Notes: a model not told the origin generated them from the sequence alone. 64,000 nucleotides of DNA from Chitinophagaceae bacterium IBVUCB2 (GCA_002127295.1 NFUV01000001.1:682001-746000); one strand, 5' to 3'; positions 49,846 through 60,127 are shown, counted from the first letter of the stretch. Numbers and translations: made by a program.

Positions 49846-49972
49846 AGTCCGAAAGTCTGTAAGACGGAAAGTCGGAAAGAAATTGTCTGAGAGCAAGGAG
49901 TTTTTTATAGATTTTGGAATGGAATATAGCATTCGGTCTTCCCCTGACCTTACTGTCTTGCGGACTTACTTT
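49846..49972. repeat. Imperfect inverted GTCCG/AAGAC repeat pair between convergent genes
   Basis: The left arm (49846-49880) has GTCCGAAAGTCTGTAAGAC and GGAAAGTCGGAAAG. The right arm (49946-49972), read on the minus strand, has AAGTAAGTCCGCAAGACAG. They could pair in RNA and act as a bidirectional terminator. GTCnGAAAGTC-type units are reminiscent of dispersed Chitinophagaceae spacer repeats. Confidence 0.45.
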
Positions 49973-50736
49973 TCTACTGTTTGCCAATGATGCTTTCCCA
50001 TCATCATGTACTTTTTACTTTGCTCGATGGCATCCATAATCTGCGAAAGAATAGTTTCTGCCGGTGCATCGTAATCGATTTCCAATGGAGCTTTAAAAGT
50101 TACAGATAATAATGTTCCTTTCTTTTTAAATTTTAACCCCTTTTTATTAAAGGCCCGCCAGAATCCATTTATCACTACTGGTATTACTATTGGCTTCATT
50201 TGCTTAATGATGAGTGCAGTTCCCTTTCGACCCGGTGCAAATGGCTTGGTAGTTCCCTGGGGGAAAGTGATCACCCAGTTATTTTCTAGTGCCTTGAAAA
50301 TTTTTCTTGTGTCAGAAGCATCTAATCCTTTTCTCACTTCTTTTTTCGGACCGTCATTCCAGGTTCTTTTTACGGTAAGTCCTCCTGCCAATAAAAACAA
50401 ACGACTTATTAAACTTCCTTTCATAGTCGCTTCTGCAGCTACATAATTTACTCTTGTAAATGGATTGAGTAAATAATAAGGAATACCGAGACGATTTTTT
50501 TTACCCCATTTAATAGCACAGAAAATATGCAGAAAGGTTATTACGTCGGCAAAATATGTTTGGTGATTACTTACAAAGAGAACCCGTTGCCGGGGTAATT
50601 TGCTGATATGTTCGGTACCGGATATTTTCAGCTTATTGACGATAGCAAGTCCAGGATATGAAAATAAGCCTACAAAAAAGTAAACTAGTTTTCTTACCGG
50701 GTGGAAATTTCTTAACCTTTCGCCTATAGAAGCCAT
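49966..50736 (-). CDS. 1-acyl-sn-glycerol-3-phosphate acyltransferase (PlsC-like)
   Basis: 256 residues. The PlsC acyltransferase motifs are clear: NHQTYFAD (H-x4-D, catalytic), then the glycerol-phosphate-binding block FPQGTTKPFAPGRKGTA and the IPVVINGF motif. A short hydrophobic N-terminal segment (RKLVYFFVGLFSYPGLAIV) anchors it at the membrane. It acylates lysophosphatidate in phospholipid synthesis. A second, related acyltransferase is at 53147. Which of the two is the housekeeping PlsC is not evident. Confidence 0.88.
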   Translation of the reverse strand: MASIGERLRNFHPVRKLVYFFVGLFSYPGLAIVNKLKISGTEHISKLPRQRVLFVSNHQTYFADVITFLHIFCAIKWGKKNRLGIPYYLLNPFTRVNYVAAEATMKGSLISRLFLLAGGLTVKRTWNDGPKKEVRKGLDASDTRKIFKALENNWVITFPQGTTKPFAPGRKGTALIIKQMKPIVIPVVINGFWRAFNKKGLKFKKKGTLLSVTFKAPLEIDYDAPAETILSQIMDAIEQSKKYMMMGKHHWQTVEK

Positions 50737-53146: not shown

Positions 53147-54109
53147 CTAATCCAGTTGCTGCTTCACTTGTATATAAGCCCAGGCAGTAAATGGTAATAG
53201 GGGGATTATTAAAAGGCTCCACCAACTACAGGTAAGTAAATACGAGGCTGCAGATAATAGCAACAAATAAAAGGGGTATAAGAAGATCAGCAATGCCATT
53301 ACTACCGAATCAAAATGATCTGTATCCATTGTTTTTGTGTTAGCAAAATATCGAACAGGTAAATAGAGAGGCGCATTCAATACAAAACCAAGCATTGCAG
53401 GGATTGATAGCAATACTTTTGTAACAAGTTTTACATTAACTGAAAGTTTTTGGTTTTTCTTATCACTATCTGTAGCAGGAATTTCAAAAACCAATTGCTC
53501 CAATTCAGTTTGGAGTTTAGTATTAAAAGCAAGGTTTTTTTTTCCATCTGTATCGAACTGCAATATCTCTTCTTTAGAAATGACTGATCCAAAATTTAGA
53601 AATATGTTTTTCCCAACCCGCTTGAAAGAACTATAGTTGATGCCCACTGGTAGTACTTTCAAATCAATACCTTCCTGCCAGCTATTGATTGCCAACCTGG
53701 CTGTTCCTTTTTTTAAAGGACGTAAATGCCATTCATTAACACATTTTCCTTCGCTGAACATCAACACCAATCCATTCTTTCGAAAAATTTCCTTGCAGGC
53801 ATCAAAGGTTGTATAATTCGTTTCCAAATTCTCTACTCCCTCACTGGTTCGATATACCGGAAGTATCTTAAGTTTTGTTAGCAGTTTTATATAAAATGGT
53901 TTTTTGAAAACATCTCCTCTTGCCAGCGACCAAATTGGTTTATCAAAAAGAATATCCAGTATGATGGCATCTAAAAATGAATTGGGATGATTAGCGGCCA
54001 GCAATAATGGACCTTTCATCTTCAAACGTTCTGGATTATTGATAACAATTCTGCGGCAGAAAGTTATTGAAGCCAGGCGAACCCATATTTTAAGAAATCC
54101 GTAAAGCAA
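53147..54109 (-). CDS. Membrane acyltransferase, PlsC superfamily, next to the arsenosugar genes
   Basis: 320 residues. The acyltransferase signature NHPNSFLD (H-x4-D) and a phosphate-binding FSEGKCVNEWHLRPLKKGTARLA block are visible, with a KVLPVGINY motif. Two or three C-terminal membrane spans (about 225-310) make it longer than usual PlsC. Its substrate is unknown. It is separated by 85 bases from the arsenosugar glycosyltransferase on the same strand and could be the last gene of that unit, which raises the possibility of arsenolipid formation; a plain lipid role is as likely. Confidence 0.85.
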   Translation of the reverse strand: MLYGFLKIWVRLASITFCRRIVINNPERLKMKGPLLLAANHPNSFLDAIILDILFDKPIWSLARGDVFKKPFYIKLLTKLKILPVYRTSEGVENLETNYTTFDACKEIFRKNGLVLMFSEGKCVNEWHLRPLKKGTARLAINSWQEGIDLKVLPVGINYSSFKRVGKNIFLNFGSVISKEEILQFDTDGKKNLAFNTKLQTELEQLVFEIPATDSDKKNQKLSVNVKLVTKVLLSIPAMLGFVLNAPLYLPVRYFANTKTMDTDHFDSVVMALLIFLYPFYLLLLSAASYLLTCSWWSLLIIPLLPFTAWAYIQVKQQLD

Positions 54110-54193
54110 TTAGTCTTTTAAGAATGAATATACTACATCGGTTCTATTTATTCCTCTATACATACAAATACTATTTACCCTTATGTTGATCTA

Positions 54194-54790
54194 TTATTTC
54201 AATAGTTGCTGAAAGCGATGCAGGTCTTCTGCGGTATCTATATCAGATAACTCGGTCAAAAAATAGCTGGATCTTTTTAACCGCACAACATCCTTGATAG
54301 TTTCTGCAAGCACCTTTTCGGTACTCCATTCCTTATCCTTAAATAAATCAGGAAGTAAGTGTGTTAATCCAAGCAGGTAATAGCCGCCATCTGTTGATGG
54401 CCCGATCACAACATCATGTGAATCTAATTTATCAAATGCATCATCTATAACAAAACTGGTTAGTTCCGGACAATCACTGCCGATGATAACTACTTTCGAA
54501 TACCCCTGTTGGAATAATTCGAAAAAAGCCAGCATCATTCTGTCGCCTAAATTGTCGCCTTCTTGCAATTTCTTTTCGAATCGATCCGCATCCCATATGT
54601 CGCTATCCACTATATTTTCGCTGTAGAAAACAAACCTATCACAATCCAAATTACAAGTAGTGTCACGGGTATGCATTAACAACTCACTGTACACCTGCAA
54701 TGTCAACTCATCCCCTATTTGCCTTGCCAGTCTTGTTTTCACTTTCCCTAATTCAGGATTGCGTACGAAAATGATAATTGCTTTTTTCAT
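54194..54790 (-). CDS. Arsenosugar biosynthesis glycosyltransferase, TIGR04282 family
   Basis: 198 residues. It has a CofC/MobA-like nucleotidyl- or glycosyl-transferase fold (DUF2064), here with IIIFVRNPELGKVKTRLARQ, KKLQEGDNLGDRM, VVIIGSDCPEL and GPSTDGGYYLLGL. DIDTAEDL lies near the C-terminus. TIGR04282 proteins are tied to arsenosugar gene clusters, and the ArsM gene is 45 bases upstream. It probably adds or activates the sugar group on the dimethylarsinoyl-riboside. The exact donor is unknown. Confidence 0.9.
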   Translation of the reverse strand: MKKAIIIFVRNPELGKVKTRLARQIGDELTLQVYSELLMHTRDTTCNLDCDRFVFYSENIVDSDIWDADRFEKKLQEGDNLGDRMMLAFFELFQQGYSKVVIIGSDCPELTSFVIDDAFDKLDSHDVVIGPSTDGGYYLLGLTHLLPDLFKDKEWSTEKVLAETIKDVVRLKRSSYFLTELSDIDTAEDLHRFQQLLK

Positions 54791-54835
54791 ATTCTAAGGT
54801 TTTGGTTTATATATCATACTCAATTCTGCGAGGCA

Positions 54836-55807
54836 TCAGCAACAACCACCACCATCATAAAACCAGGTAGAATTGGAAATAAAAATATCCTCTCTTTTCA
54901 ATGAAGCTAATGCACCAGCCGTTTTATCACAAACTGCTAATGGTTGATTGGGTAATAATACATGCCCCTTATTATCATCAAAGCATTCGTCACTTCCAAA
55001 ATAAATAGCGGTTTTGCCAGTAAATACACAAGGCCCATCCGCCGGCATCGTATCTTTAATGGCGCATACTTCTACACTTTCAATATAGATCAATTTATCA
55101 GTAGCATAGTTTTCCGGATCAAGAATACGATAAGGACGTTTTGCTCTTACCTCTACGGTTCCGAATCCAACCTCAGTTATCATTTTAATATAGTCCCATA
55201 ATGGCAACGAACCACTAAGGCACAATGCTCTTAACCGTTCATCATTGCGCAAATTATCTGGAATGGCTGTTTCGCAGATGGGGTCACTCATCACCAAACG
55301 GCCGCGGGGCTTTAATACCCTGTACATTTCTTCTAATGCTTTTTTCAATTCCTCCTGCTTAAAAATATTGAACAAGCAGTTCTGTGCTGCCACATCAATA
55401 CTATTATCTTTTACGGGCAATTGTAATGCATCGCCCTTTTTTACTTCTACAAATTCACTCCTAAACCAGGGATTCATTTTTTCGGCATCCTTAAAATTCT
55501 CCTTGCAGGCTATTAACATTTCATCTACTACATCTACCCCAATTACTCCACCCTGCTGCCGGCTGAAATAAGCAAATTGCAATAACTCCATTCCACCCCC
55601 AACACCTACATATAAAATTTTAGGATTATTTACTAAATCCCTGGGATGCACCGTGCTGCCGCAACCATAATTCATCTGCTGCATTTTTACGGGAATATCT
55701 AAACCCGGTAATTGCCAAACAGGTGTAGTAGTGCAACACAAACCAACATTTGGATTTTCTGCAGCTTCCTTGTAAACATCCTTTGTTGTTTCTAAATATG
55801 TCATCAT
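54836..55807 (-). CDS. arsM: Arsenosugar biosynthesis arsenite methyltransferase
   Basis: 323 residues. The SAM methyltransferase core is PKILYVGVGGGMELLQ, then IGVDVVDEML, and VKKGDALQLPVKDNSIDVAAQNC. The three arsenic-binding Cys of ArsM are present: Cys49 (NYGCGS), Cys144 (QNCLFN) and Cys196 (LCLSGS). A Cys pair at 24-25 and a GGGCC end add extra thiols. It methylates arsenite to di- or trimethylated arsenic. It lies 16 bases downstream of arsS and is the start of the pathway to arsenosugars. A C-terminal extension of ~60 residues is typical of the arsenosugar subgroup. Confidence 0.95.
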   Translation of the reverse strand: MMTYLETTKDVYKEAAENPNVGLCCTTTPVWQLPGLDIPVKMQQMNYGCGSTVHPRDLVNNPKILYVGVGGGMELLQFAYFSRQQGGVIGVDVVDEMLIACKENFKDAEKMNPWFRSEFVEVKKGDALQLPVKDNSIDVAAQNCLFNIFKQEELKKALEEMYRVLKPRGRLVMSDPICETAIPDNLRNDERLRALCLSGSLPLWDYIKMITEVGFGTVEVRAKRPYRILDPENYATDKLIYIESVEVCAIKDTMPADGPCVFTGKTAIYFGSDECFDDNKGHVLLPNQPLAVCDKTAGALASLKREDIFISNSTWFYDGGGCC

Positions 55808-55823
55808 AATTATTTTTTTAAGC

Positions 55824-56879
55824 TTATGCTACAGCCCCACCACAACTGCTTCCAGCTCCTGCCGTGCAGCCATAACAATGCTGATTGACAACTATATTTC
55901 TATTACTCAATACTGCCTCACTATATTGTGAAATATGCTGAGCCGAACAATCCACCTTCATATCCAACATCTGGTTAAAATCGCAATCATAAATAAATCC
56001 ATCCCAACTTATAGAAACTGTGTTACGGCACATTACATTAGCTGCAGCTACCGGGTTATACGCAGTCACTAATTTTTCCATATACTTTTCATAATTACTG
56101 CTCTGCAATAAATAATCAAGAAATCTGCTAATGGGCAGGTTGGTTATAGCATACAGCGAATGAAAAGAAATATCAAAATCTTTTTTTAAAACAAGCTTGA
56201 ATTCCTTCTCCAAAGAATCCTGTGTTGATGGTAAAAATGCACCGGCTGGATTATATACCAGGTTTAATTTTTGTTCGCTTCCTTCTATTCCATACCCAAC
56301 CGCATTCAGCATTTGTAAGGCTTTAATAGAATCTTCAAAAACTCCATCTCCCCGCTGCCTGTCCGTTCTGTCCTTTGAATAAAAAGGAAGCGAGGACACT
56401 ACTTCAATAGAATGTTGCTTAAAAAATTCAGGAAGATCATGATACTTCTTGTTTGCTAAAATAATTGTCAGGTTACACCGGACAATGATATGCTTATCCA
56501 ACTCTTTTATTTTCGCTACGAACCAGCGAAAATCCGGATTTAATTCAGGTGCGCCACCAGTAAGGTCAACAGTTTTAAAAGAAGGATTAGCTGCCAAAAT
56601 ATTTAAGCATTGTTGCATAGTTTCCCTGGTCATTATCTCCTTTCTGTCAGGACCTGCATCAACATGACAATGCTTGCAAACCTGGTTACACATTTTACCA
56701 ACGTTGATCTGGAAAATTTCTAATTGAGTTGGCTTTAAAGGAAACAATCCTGCGGCTTCCATTTTCTGTTGAAAAGGGATTAGCTTAAAACTATCGTCAT
56801 GATTAATACCATGTTCCAGAATTTCAATCTGTTCATGTGTATCTGAAAGTATATGTTGCTGTGCTTTTAGCGATTTCAT
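55824..56879 (-). CDS. arsS: Arsenosugar biosynthesis radical SAM protein
   Basis: 351 residues. The radical-SAM cluster motif is CNQVCKHC (Cys64, Cys68, Cys71), and a Gly-rich SAM site GGAPELNPDFRWF follows. The C-terminal DUF3641-like Cys-rich region has YDCDFNQMLD and CYGCTAGAGSSCGG. ArsS cleaves SAM and transfers the 5'-deoxyadenosyl group to dimethylarsenic, forming 5'-deoxy-5'-dimethylarsinoyl-adenosine. Some members use selenocysteine; here all motif positions are Cys codons. It lies between ArsM and the CMD protein with 16- and 29-base gaps. Confidence 0.95.
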   Translation of the reverse strand: MKSLKAQQHILSDTHEQIEILEHGINHDDSFKLIPFQQKMEAAGLFPLKPTQLEIFQINVGKMCNQVCKHCHVDAGPDRKEIMTRETMQQCLNILAANPSFKTVDLTGGAPELNPDFRWFVAKIKELDKHIIVRCNLTIILANKKYHDLPEFFKQHSIEVVSSLPFYSKDRTDRQRGDGVFEDSIKALQMLNAVGYGIEGSEQKLNLVYNPAGAFLPSTQDSLEKEFKLVLKKDFDISFHSLYAITNLPISRFLDYLLQSSNYEKYMEKLVTAYNPVAAANVMCRNTVSISWDGFIYDCDFNQMLDMKVDCSAQHISQYSEAVLSNRNIVVNQHCYGCTAGAGSSCGGAVA

Positions 56880-56908
56880 TTCTTAAGTAATTAAATTAGA
56901 TCATCTAC

Positions 56909-57244
56909 TTACATCGCTATTTCTTTCACTTTATTCATCATTTGTACCCCATGCACTAATACTGCACCACCTTTAATAGCGGAAGCTACATGAACAGCTT
57001 CCATCATTTGCGCTTCGCTCCACCCTTTTTCAAAGGCATCGCTGCTATAGGCATCAATACAATATGGACACTGAACTGCATGAGCAACTGCTAAAGCAAT
57101 CAATGATTTTTCCCTGGCAGACAAATTTCCTTCAGCGAAAACTTCACCGTACCAGGCAAAAAATTTATCTGCTAATGGTTTTTGAAATTTGTCGATACCT
57201 GAAAACTTACCCAGGTCGTCTGCATTGTAATAATGATTTGCCAT
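56909..57244 (-). CDS. Arsenosugar biosynthesis-associated peroxidase-like (CMD) protein
   Basis: 111 residues, carboxymuconolactone decarboxylase/AhpD-like fold. The redox motif is CPYCIDAYSSDAFEKG (Cys-x-x-Cys plus the downstream His region HAVQCPYC), with the KSLIALAVAHAVQ helix typical of the family. TIGR04169 proteins accompany ArsS in many clusters. It may protect or reduce arsenic or peroxide intermediates. It follows the thioredoxin-DUF547 gene by 3 bases, a sign of translational coupling. Confidence 0.92.
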   Translation of the reverse strand: MANHYYNADDLGKFSGIDKFQKPLADKFFAWYGEVFAEGNLSAREKSLIALAVAHAVQCPYCIDAYSSDAFEKGWSEAQMMEAVHVASAIKGGAVLVHGVQMMNKVKEIAM

Positions 57245-57247
57245 GCT

Positions 57248-58516
57248 TTATGATTTATAGTTTTGTAAATAAAGTGTCCAATCGTATTCTTTGAATTTAA
57301 TTGTTGGATTCCTATCCATCGGGACAATTGATAGCTGCTTTAACAACGCAAGCATTTTTTTCTTACCTCCAAAATCCTGTCGAAACCAGCTCATTAACCG
57401 GGGTAGCTCAACTGTATTGGTACTTTCATTGTAGTCTGCTTCTCCCGTTAAAAATGCTTTTGTTGCCAGGTCTAACTGCTGGTCTATGTTTTCTGATTTA
57501 TAAAAAGCAATGGGAGGACAACTTTTAGCCCCACAGTTCAGGGCAAAGTGCAATCTGTAATCTAGTTTATTAACCCTTAATTGTTTCTCCGTCTTTCCCG
57601 CAAACAATTTATTAAAATGGCCCAGGCTCCATTTTATTTTAGAACGTCGTAAAATACCATGTTCAATATCATCAAGACTAAAGGATGCCCCTGCTATTTT
57701 TATAAACTTACTACTAAAGAATTTTGACCTTTTTTTATACTGTTCCGGATCATTCTTTAATGCTACCTGTGTGTACGCATTATATAAATTGATCCAAAAG
57801 GCTTTCTTTTCTTCATCCGTTCTAATAGCTTGTTGTAAATCATTCATACTTATTTGCTGCAGTTGAGCCATAAAAGTCGAAGTCTCATCACCCGTCTTCG
57901 CTGCATACATAAATACCTGGGATAATTGCACTAATTTATTTTGTGATGGCTCCACTCCGCTTTTTTGATTATTACCGGAAGATACCGATGGTTCGGTTAT
58001 ATTATTGGTCGTGCCTATGACAGGTTCATTATACTGGGTCCTGAGCCATTTGTCAATATTAGTTGCAGTAATTTCTTCTTGTGAGGGAATGGCAATTACT
58101 TTTCCCCCGGTTCCTACAATAACAGTATAGGGATAGGAAGGCGGTTGAAATCGTTCAATAAAATTTTTTTCCTCATCTACTACAATCGGAAGTATTATGT
58201 TGGTTTGTTTTTTTAGAAATATTTCCAATTTTATTGACGATTCTTCTGACACCAAAATAATATTGATTTCATTTTTATACTTTTCCTGCAATGCATTTAA
58301 TTTCGGCAATGCTTTTACACAAGGGACGCACCAGGTACCAAAAAAATCAACGATCAATAATTTTGTTTTGAATTGCTGAAAAGTGGAAGTGTTTGATGAA
58401 TGATTCAGGATTTTAGGAATTGAAAAATTACCTGTCATATCATTCACTGCATAGCCATTCTGAGCGGTTAGAATAGAGGATAGCCCGGCAAGTACTATTA
58501 AAAATGCTATTTTCAT
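57248..58516 (-). CDS. Exported thioredoxin-DUF547 fusion protein of the arsenosugar operon
   Basis: 422 residues. A signal peptide (to about 18, ILTAQ) precedes a thioredoxin/TlpA-like domain (about 30-165) with active site FGTWCVPCVKALPKL (Cys63, Cys66). A Ser/Asn-rich linker leads to a DUF547 domain (about 200-420; ARNGAKSCPPI-like 'NCGAKSCPPIAFYKS' at about 340, and RLMSWFRQDFGG). DUF547 proteins are frequent near thiol chemistry, but function is unknown. It is the first gene of the minus-strand arsenosugar unit, 86 bases from the divergent phosphorylase. Confidence 0.88.
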   Translation of the reverse strand: MKIAFLIVLAGLSSILTAQNGYAVNDMTGNFSIPKILNHSSNTSTFQQFKTKLLIVDFFGTWCVPCVKALPKLNALQEKYKNEINIILVSEESSIKLEIFLKKQTNIILPIVVDEEKNFIERFQPPSYPYTVIVGTGGKVIAIPSQEEITATNIDKWLRTQYNEPVIGTTNNITEPSVSSGNNQKSGVEPSQNKLVQLSQVFMYAAKTGDETSTFMAQLQQISMNDLQQAIRTDEEKKAFWINLYNAYTQVALKNDPEQYKKRSKFFSSKFIKIAGASFSLDDIEHGILRRSKIKWSLGHFNKLFAGKTEKQLRVNKLDYRLHFALNCGAKSCPPIAFYKSENIDQQLDLATKAFLTGEADYNESTNTVELPRLMSWFRQDFGGKKKMLALLKQLSIVPMDRNPTIKFKEYDWTLYLQNYKS

Positions 58517-58538
58517 TAAGGATATAACAGGTTGGTCA

Positions 58539-58548
58539 AACTATAGTT
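58539..58548. promoter_or_regulatory. 10-bp palindrome AACTATAGTT between divergent arsenosugar-region genes
   Basis: A perfect 10-base palindrome lies in the 86-base gap between the DUF547 gene and the phosphorylase, near the middle of the region. It could be a site for a shared regulator. It is short and AT-rich, so chance is possible. Confidence 0.3.
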
Positions 58549-58602
58549 AAACAATAAACGTAAATTTATCGCCTTAGGATTTGGATTGTAAATTTTGTTT
58601 AT

Positions 58603-59427
58603 ATGAAACTTAGCCATGAAATCATTGCTCAAACTACTTCATTTTTAAGGGAATATGGAGTTAATGAGGCTACAGTAGCTATAATAATGGGGACCGGGCT
58701 GGGTGAAATGGTGCATAAAATTGACAACCCAATAACTATTCCTTTTGCGAAAATTCCCAATTTTCCAGAGGCAACCGTTGAATTTCATAAAGGCAATCTT
58801 GTTTATGGACAAATTGGGGAGCTGAAAGTGATAGCCCTGCAAGGTCGTTTTCATTATTATGAAGGCTATACTATGCAGCAGATCACTTTTCCTATCCGGG
58901 TAATGAAAGAACTGGGAGTAAGATATCTATTGTTGAGTAATGCAGCCGGAGCTATGAATTTGTCATATAAAAAAGGTGACCTGGTTTTAATAGAAGATCA
59001 TATCAATTTACTTCCCGACAATCCGTTGCGGGGAATTAATGATCCTGCTTTGGGACAACGGTTTGTGGATATGAGTGAACCGTATGACAATGTTTTGATC
59101 CAACAGATAGAGCAGAATGCTGTATCACAAAATGTGCCGTTGAAAAAAGGAATCTATATTGCTGTGATGGGTCCAAATTTAGAGACCAAAGCAGAGTACA
59201 GGTGGCTACGTAGCATGGGTGCAGATATGGTGGGAATGAGTACGGTTCCCGAAGTAATTGTGGCTAATCAAATTGGAATAAAATGCGCTGCTGTAAGTGT
59301 CATCACGGATGAATGTGACCCCAATAATTTAAAGCCGATTAATATACCAGAGATAATTGAAGTAGCGGGAAGGTCGGACAAACTATTAAGTAACATATTT
59401 ACAGCATTAATTAAAGACATGGAGTAA
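58603..59427 (+). CDS. Purine nucleoside phosphorylase, trimeric family
   Basis: 274 residues. The trimeric PNP fold shows GTGLGEMV, ALQGRFHYYEGY (His84), LSNAAGAMN, the Glu194 motif MGPNLETKAEYRWLRSMGADMVGMST and SVITDECDP. The residue corresponding to the Asn that selects 6-oxopurines (Asn243 in human PNP) is Asp236, as in MTAP-type enzymes that prefer adenine nucleosides. It splits nucleosides to base and ribose-1-phosphate. Its place in the arsenosugar cluster fits phosphorolysis of the dimethylarsinoyl-adenosine made by ArsS. A housekeeping salvage role is the alternative. Confidence 0.93.
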   Translation: MKLSHEIIAQTTSFLREYGVNEATVAIIMGTGLGEMVHKIDNPITIPFAKIPNFPEATVEFHKGNLVYGQIGELKVIALQGRFHYYEGYTMQQITFPIRVMKELGVRYLLLSNAAGAMNLSYKKGDLVLIEDHINLLPDNPLRGINDPALGQRFVDMSEPYDNVLIQQIEQNAVSQNVPLKKGIYIAVMGPNLETKAEYRWLRSMGADMVGMSTVPEVIVANQIGIKCAAVSVITDECDPNNLKPINIPEIIEVAGRSDKLLSNIFTALIKDME

Positions 59428-59434
59428 TAAAAGA

Positions 59435-60127
59435 TTACCTGTAGTCAAGCATTTTTTTATATGTATCTACCATCGATTGCTGGTCAGCTCCATTCCTATA
59501 CATACTTACTATTTTTTTATTTGCCATTTGAACCTGCCACCAGCTATTAGTATCATATTTGCGGGCGGAAACCAATGCTGGTTTTTTGAAAATTTTATAC
59601 TGCGCCAGCTTTCTTACTCTTGGAACGAATTCAAACTCTTCCATAATGGCCATATCTGTTCTAAACCCACCACTCTTCTCATATAAACCCTTAGTAATAA
59701 AAAGTGTTTGGTCACCACCCATGCAAACAAACCAATCAAAACGGGTAAACCAGGCATTGATCTTTAAATACCATTTTCTCGAATTGAATTTTGTACGATA
59801 ACGACCCACTTCGAATCCTTCGGTAACCGCCTCTGTAATATCATTATCAAAAGAAGTAGGTGGAATTGTATCTGCATGAATAAAATATAAAATATCGCCT
59901 TGCGCCAAAGATGCCCCATAATTCATTTGGGCAGCTCTTCCTTTTTGTGGCGAAATAATAGTTTTGGCACCAGCTTGTCTTGCGATTTCCATCGTGTTAT
60001 CAGTACTACCGGCATCAATAGCCAGTATCTCAACTACTGAATCTTTTCTATGATGAAAAATATAATTAACCAACCTCCCAATATTATCTGCTTCATTATA
60101 AACAGGTATGATGATACTGATCTTCAT
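59435..60127 (-). CDS. Arsenosugar biosynthesis glycosyltransferase, TIGR04283 family
   Basis: 230 residues. GT-A family 2 fold: ISIIIPVYNEADNIGRLVNYIF, then AIDAGSTDNTMEIARQAGAKTI, with LYFIHADTIPPTSFD carrying the DxD-like metal site. The C-terminus (QMANKKIVSMYRNGADQQSM) is soluble. TIGR04283 proteins occur in arsenosugar clusters together with TIGR04282, so it likely forms the glycosidic bond of the arsenosugar. It is convergent with the phosphorylase across 7 bases and downstream of the flavoprotein by 32 bases. Confidence 0.9.
   Translation of the reverse strand: MKISIIIPVYNEADNIGRLVNYIFHHRKDSVVEILAIDAGSTDNTMEIARQAGAKTIISPQKGRAAQMNYGASLAQGDILYFIHADTIPPTSFDNDITEAVTEGFEVGRYRTKFNSRKWYLKINAWFTRFDWFVCMGGDQTLFITKGLYEKSGGFRTDMAIMEEFEFVPRVRKLAQYKIFKKPALVSARKYDTNSWWQVQMANKKIVSMYRNGADQQSMVDTYKKMLDYR

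Follow-up and report, generated by a model that had tools for sequence, protein, structure and literature searches.

Dimethylarsenite, the product of arsenite methylation by ArsM, is coupled by ArsS to the 5′-deoxyadenosyl group of SAM, which gives 5′-deoxy-5′-dimethylarsinoyl-adenosine. Which genes account for the steps that turn this ArsS product into an arsenosugar is the question raised by the locus analysed here, located at positions 53147-60127 of a 64,000-nt stretch of DNA (hereafter the window) from Chitinophagaceae bacterium IBVUCB2 (GCA_002127295.1 NFUV01000001.1:682001-746000). The source genome, of about 4.0 Mb in three contigs, is near complete. The 2021 study of Cheng and co-workers (Angew. 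Chem. 60:7570; cited in PMC12159101) reportedly characterised ArsS, and is said to concern the adenosylation step. The ArsS studied there belongs to the same family and has the same CxxxCxxC motif as the enzyme encoded in the window; our proposal concerns the steps that follow adenosylation.

All eight ORFs named in the preliminary description were recovered where it had placed them, and families were assigned with NCBIfam and Pfam (Table 1). The genes from TIGR04282 to the thioredoxin-DUF547 fusion form a minus-strand run with intergenic gaps of 45, 16, 29 and 3 bases. The gene for the purine nucleoside phosphorylase (PNP) diverges from this run across a gap of 86 bases, and the TIGR04283 gene lies beyond it; the TTG start of the acyltransferase is found 84 bases downstream of the TIGR04282 gene. 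A search of the divergent gap for a Bacteroidota-type promoter pattern returned no site, and a sigma-70 promoter scan gave matches at chance level.

Table 1. Features of the arsenosugar locus (window positions) and further genes found beside arsS in related genomes (locus:positions)
Feature	Position	Strand	Assignment
PF01553 acyltransferase	53147..54109	(-)	PF01553; start codon TTG
TIGR04282 / DUF2064 protein	54194..54790	(-)	204 bits, cut-off 134
ArsM, arsenosugar-type arsenite methyltransferase	54836..55807	(-)	AsSugarArsM NF038099, 572 bits, cut-off 400
ArsS, radical SAM enzyme	55824..56879	(-)	TIGR04167, 444 bits, cut-off 300
CMD/AhpD-like "arsenosugar biosynthesis-associated peroxidase-like" protein	56909..57244	(-)	TIGR04169, 175 bits, cut-off 120
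Thioredoxin-DUF547 fusion	57248..58516	(-)	PF04784 + AhpC-TSA
Class I PNP	58603..59427	(+)	NF006054, 335 bits, cut-off 218
TIGR04283 GT2-type glycosyltransferase	59435..60127	(-)	218 bits, cut-off 182
Fatty acid hydroxylase beside arsS	L111:14359-15258		PF04116
Rhodanese beside arsS	L117:11026-11547		
Glyoxalase/VOC protein beside arsS	L084:13698-14756		~350 aa
SDR beside arsS	L084:14741-15535		
Pyridine nucleotide-disulphide oxidoreductase beside arsS	L101:15792-17102		

As five of the proteins (ArsM, ArsS, the CMD protein, TIGR04282 and TIGR04283) exceed the cut-offs of the five NCBIfam models already named for arsenosugar biosynthesis (NF038099, TIGR04167, TIGR04169, TIGR04282 and TIGR04283), the core of the cluster is of a known kind. 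The ArsM-ArsS arsenosugar core that had been claimed is supported by the scores of both enzymes over the curated cut-offs and by the residues of the translated sequences: ArsM has cysteines at positions 24, 25, 49, 144 and 196, the last three of which had been reported, and the CNQVCKHC motif described for ArsS is indeed present as C64-x3-C68-x2-C71, that is, CxxxCxxC. ArsS is 51-81% identical to its relatives. For comparisons of gene neighbourhoods we used those named Bacteroidota arsS loci that have 7 kb of flanking sequence to either side (full-flank loci, 62 in all). A protein of the CMD family is encoded near arsS in 60 of them, a TIGR04283 protein in 23 and a DUF547 homologue in 21. The CMD protein carries a CPYC motif; the thioredoxin-DUF547 fusion, the predicted structure of which reaches a pLDDT of only 65, carries a CVPC motif and an N-terminal hydrophobic stretch. 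Both proteins probably take part in redox or thiol chemistry.

A PNP gene lies within 7 kb of arsS in 26 of the 62 full-flank loci, in several gene orders. Within Chitinophagaceae, a gap in the profile scores (at least 398 bits, as against 376 bits or fewer for other PNPs) defines the subtype to which the window PNP belongs; a truncated copy in genome G320 was included in the count because it adjoins ArsS. Among 249 genomes of this family, ArsS was found in 22 and the PNP subtype in 30, which divide into 21 of the 22 ArsS-positive and nine of the 227 ArsS-negative genomes. The corresponding Fisher p value of 2e-22 ignores shared ancestry and, as related genomes are not independent, is not to be read as a probability; contrasts within genera and a second family provide the better argument. 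Ten genera (g1, g2, g5, g7, g87, g101, g106, g148, g154 and g168) hold both genomes with the two genes and genomes with neither, and two (g123 and g142) include ArsS-less members that retain the PNP subtype. In G314, the only ArsS-positive genome that lacks the subtype, the ArsS reading frame is disrupted. In at least four genomes (G209, G236, G346 and G366) PNP and ArsS are far apart or on different contigs, and hence the association is more than linkage. Among 201 Flavobacteriaceae genomes, the subtype is present in 148 of 150 with ArsS and in 16 of 51 without it, and of the 136 genomes in which the positions of both genes could be determined, 111 have them no more than 15 kb apart. The preliminary description had proposed that the phosphorylase removes adenine; this predicted step is supported by the strong genome-wide co-occurrence with ArsS in two families.

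Two of the nine ArsS-negative carriers in Chitinophagaceae retain PNP in recognisable surroundings, beside the acyltransferase and yqgE in G071 (L200) and near VOC and SDR genes in G191 (L294); both are possible remnants of a lost cluster. ArsS itself is present in 150 of the 201 sampled Flavobacteriaceae, as against 22 of the 249 Chitinophagaceae, and at such a frequency the arsenosugar pathway looks near-standard for the former family.

The window PNP is a class I enzyme: besides NF006054 it exceeds the cut-off of TIGR01700 (307 bits, cut-off 293), and Arg82, His84, Glu194 and Met212 are conserved. Upon alignment with human PNP and with human MTAP, the sequence of the latter having been verified against 1cb0, its key residues are Thr31, Leu193, Glu194, Asp236 and Ile248. 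The second, housekeeping PNP of the same genome (C2:816636) has Ser, Phe, Glu, Asp and His at these five positions, the aspartate corresponding to Asp236 being common to both. Human MTAP acts on adenosine that lacks the 5′-hydroxyl. With an aspartate at PNP position 243, 6-aminopurines can be accepted; where PNP His257 is replaced by a hydrophobic residue, such as Val233 in MTAP, the partner of the 5′-hydroxyl is lost. Like MTAP, the window PNP has a threonine, an aspartate and a hydrophobic residue at the phosphate, adenine and 5′-group positions (Thr31, Asp236 and Ile248, aligned with Thr18, Asp220 and Val233), a combination by which the pocket would fit a 5′-deoxy-5′-substituted adenosine. 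Unlike MTAP, it has Glu194 and Leu193 where the human enzyme has Ser178 and Phe177, and it scores 97 bits with the MTAP model TIGR01694, below the cut-off of 275. Judged from these residues, the pocket permits the removal of adenine, without proving it.

The contrast with the housekeeping PNP had suggested an arsenic-specific adaptation of the active site. We rejected this candidate explanation: the Thr/Leu/Ile subtype proved to be the usual PNP in the sampled Flavobacteriaceae, Cytophagales and Sphingobacteriales, and residues that are normal in most other Bacteroidota sampled cannot have arisen as an arsenic adaptation. Cluster PNPs from several families fall into a single supported clade.

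Since many Bacteroidota outside Chitinophagaceae have no class I PNP besides this subtype, whether or not they carry ArsS, the enzyme could instead serve the salvage of adenosine from the S-adenosylhomocysteine that ArsM leaves, of 5′-deoxyadenosine or of methylthioadenosine, and be tied to ArsS only through the use of SAM by the pathway. The MTAP-like pocket suits methylthioadenosine and 5′-deoxyadenosine, and neither an MTAP nor an MTA/SAH nucleosidase scores over cut-off among the six PNP_UDP proteins of the genome, four of which were compared by their matched portions only. We nevertheless consider a salvage role unlikely. In Chitinophagaceae the subtype follows ArsS as described above, mostly in genomes that carry a second class I PNP besides it. 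Moreover, ArsS is reported to build the deoxyadenosyl group into its product, and little 5′-deoxyadenosine should therefore arise from it. On the strength of its co-occurrence with ArsS across hundreds of genomes, the cluster PNP is at present the leading candidate for removing adenine from the arsenic-bearing nucleoside. A literature search, with most subscription journals outside its reach, returned no paper that joins PNP with arsenosugar synthesis.

The TIGR04282 protein had been described, together with TIGR04283, as one of two glycosyltransferases that attach the sugar. Its family is also distributed with ArsS in Chitinophagaceae (20 of the 22 ArsS-positive genomes, as against 6 of the 227 ArsS-negative ones). 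An AlphaFold2 model of the protein (pLDDT 95.5) was searched with Foldseek; the closest structure, 3cgx, is that of a protein without an assigned reaction, and it is followed by FbiD (Rv2983), 3-phosphoglycerate guanylyltransferase (7p97) and CofC, glycosyltransferases ranking below these nucleotidyltransferases. FbiD, 3-phosphoglycerate guanylyltransferase and CofC all join a nucleotide to a phosphate. Asp106, Asp183 and Asp185 are invariant in 35 TIGR04282 sequences and align with aspartates of CofC; in the active site of FbiD, three aspartates hold two Mg ions (PMC6450877). The TIGR04282 protein hence combines the CofC-type fold with the three metal-binding aspartates of the CofC/FbiD guanylyltransferases, and scores 39 bits with the CofC family model TIGR03552, below the cut-off of 105; it may work like CofC, yet is no CofC. 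As fold and metal motif are both closer to CofC/FbiD, activation of a sugar 1-phosphate is the more likely function, and from the model it is plausible to reassign TIGR04282 as an arsenosugar-1-phosphate nucleotidyltransferase. Of the two glycosyltransferases proposed, TIGR04282 is therefore the one more likely to have another role.

Putting these assignments together, we propose that after ArsM and ArsS have acted, PNP would use phosphate to cleave off adenine, giving 5-deoxy-5-dimethylarsinoyl-ribose-1-phosphate. TIGR04282 would then couple this arsenic-bearing sugar phosphate to a nucleotide, as CofC and FbiD do with other phosphates, and the resulting NDP-arsenosugar would be the donor from which the GT2 enzyme TIGR04283 makes the final transfer of the arsenosugar to an acceptor. 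We give this reading of the locus, in which we infer the steps after ArsS, a probability of roughly 0.55. More tentatively, and at somewhat short of even odds, the nucleotide-sugar route, not yet described, may be widespread in the phylum Bacteroidota, given ArsS in 150 of the 201 sampled Flavobacteriaceae, and no algal speciality. In the proposed algal AsSugPhytol route, attachment of the aglycone likewise follows the loss of adenine from an arsenic-bearing adenosine (PMC10456119). That step is given to a hypothetical nucleosidase without a gene (PMC10456119), whereas a specific phosphorylase gene and a sugar-1-phosphate intermediate are proposed here. NCBIfam gives the PNP model no arsenosugar role and terms TIGR04282 a glycosyltransferase, in contrast with the tracking of ArsS by PNP and the nucleotidyltransferase-like features of TIGR04282 reported above. 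The cluster is of a known kind; the functional assignment of its PNP is new and well supported. The proposal names two genes for steps that turn the ArsS product into an arsenosugar, the enzymes for which were not identified in the literature searched. If it is true, arsenosugars would be supplied by a very common bacterial group, a point of importance both to the arsenic cycle and to the arsenic found in seafood; the TIGR04282 family would also need a new name.

In the proposed pathway the acyltransferase would stand outside, as a resident gene that adjoins the cluster. It had been suggested that it makes an arsenolipid, acylating a glycerol-arsenosugar to an arsenosugar phospholipid. The protein scores 50 bits with the PlsC model TIGR00530, below the cut-off of 103, and has orthologues with 45-57% identity in ArsS-less Chitinophagaceae. 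In three of these genomes, G082 (of the same genus), G114 and G136, the orthologue lies between rpsA and map/secY, the site that it occupies in the window, although the gene is oriented differently and its HI0933-like neighbour is placed elsewhere. Since the gene neither tracks ArsS among the 35 genomes compared nor is absent from this site in ArsS-less relatives, it is probably resident independently of the cluster; as a pathway gene at the window locus it was rejected on this synteny, and the arsenolipid suggestion is left weak here. Acyltransferases of the same family are encoded near arsS in eight other loci (L076, L080, L084, L085, L271, L273, L277 and L279), and those of the Flavobacterium turcicum and Chitinophagaceae G273 loci group together as if moved with the cluster, which suggests that some clusters carry an acyltransferase of their own; the window copy, by contrast, groups with copies from ArsS-less genomes. 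Weighing both, we find an arsenolipid route decidedly improbable. Resident and cluster-borne copies alike would be accounted for if the cluster had possibly been brought in through recombination at an acyltransferase gene. A second PF01553 acyltransferase is encoded at window positions 49966-50736, on the opposite side of rpsA.

The genes listed at 49.9-64 kb of the window include, as had been stated, neither an ArsR nor a pump nor a reductase. The conclusion drawn from this, that the route is metabolic rather than a resistance response, fails as an argument from absence, since an ArsR/SmtB regulator (L313:8519-8848, at C2:470 kb) and an Acr3 pump (L313:9438-10514, 456 bits, cut-off 283) are present elsewhere in the genome; the choice between metabolism and detoxification is thereby left undecided. 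Under plain detoxification, the pathway would end at dimethylarsinoyl-adenosine or its export, and PNP, TIGR04282 and TIGR04283 would have substrates outside it. This reading agrees with the arsR-acr3 pair and with the finding that 32 of the 62 full-flank loci have no arsM in the 7 kb to either side of arsS, so that these genes do not invariably form a unit, but it is very improbable given that the distributions of TIGR04282 and of the PNP subtype follow that of ArsS across genomes even when the genes are unlinked. The arsR-acr3 run (G000:C2:470479-471468, in L313) has a gene for a 157 aa protein in between, and nearby genes encode a MerTP-type transporter and another ArsR-like regulator.

Five further kinds of gene, absent from the window, recur beside arsS in related genomes and are represented in Table 1 by examples from L111, L117, L084 and L101. 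In another Chitinophagaceae genome, G262, ArsS is present three times, each copy in a cluster of its own (L266, L267 and L269).
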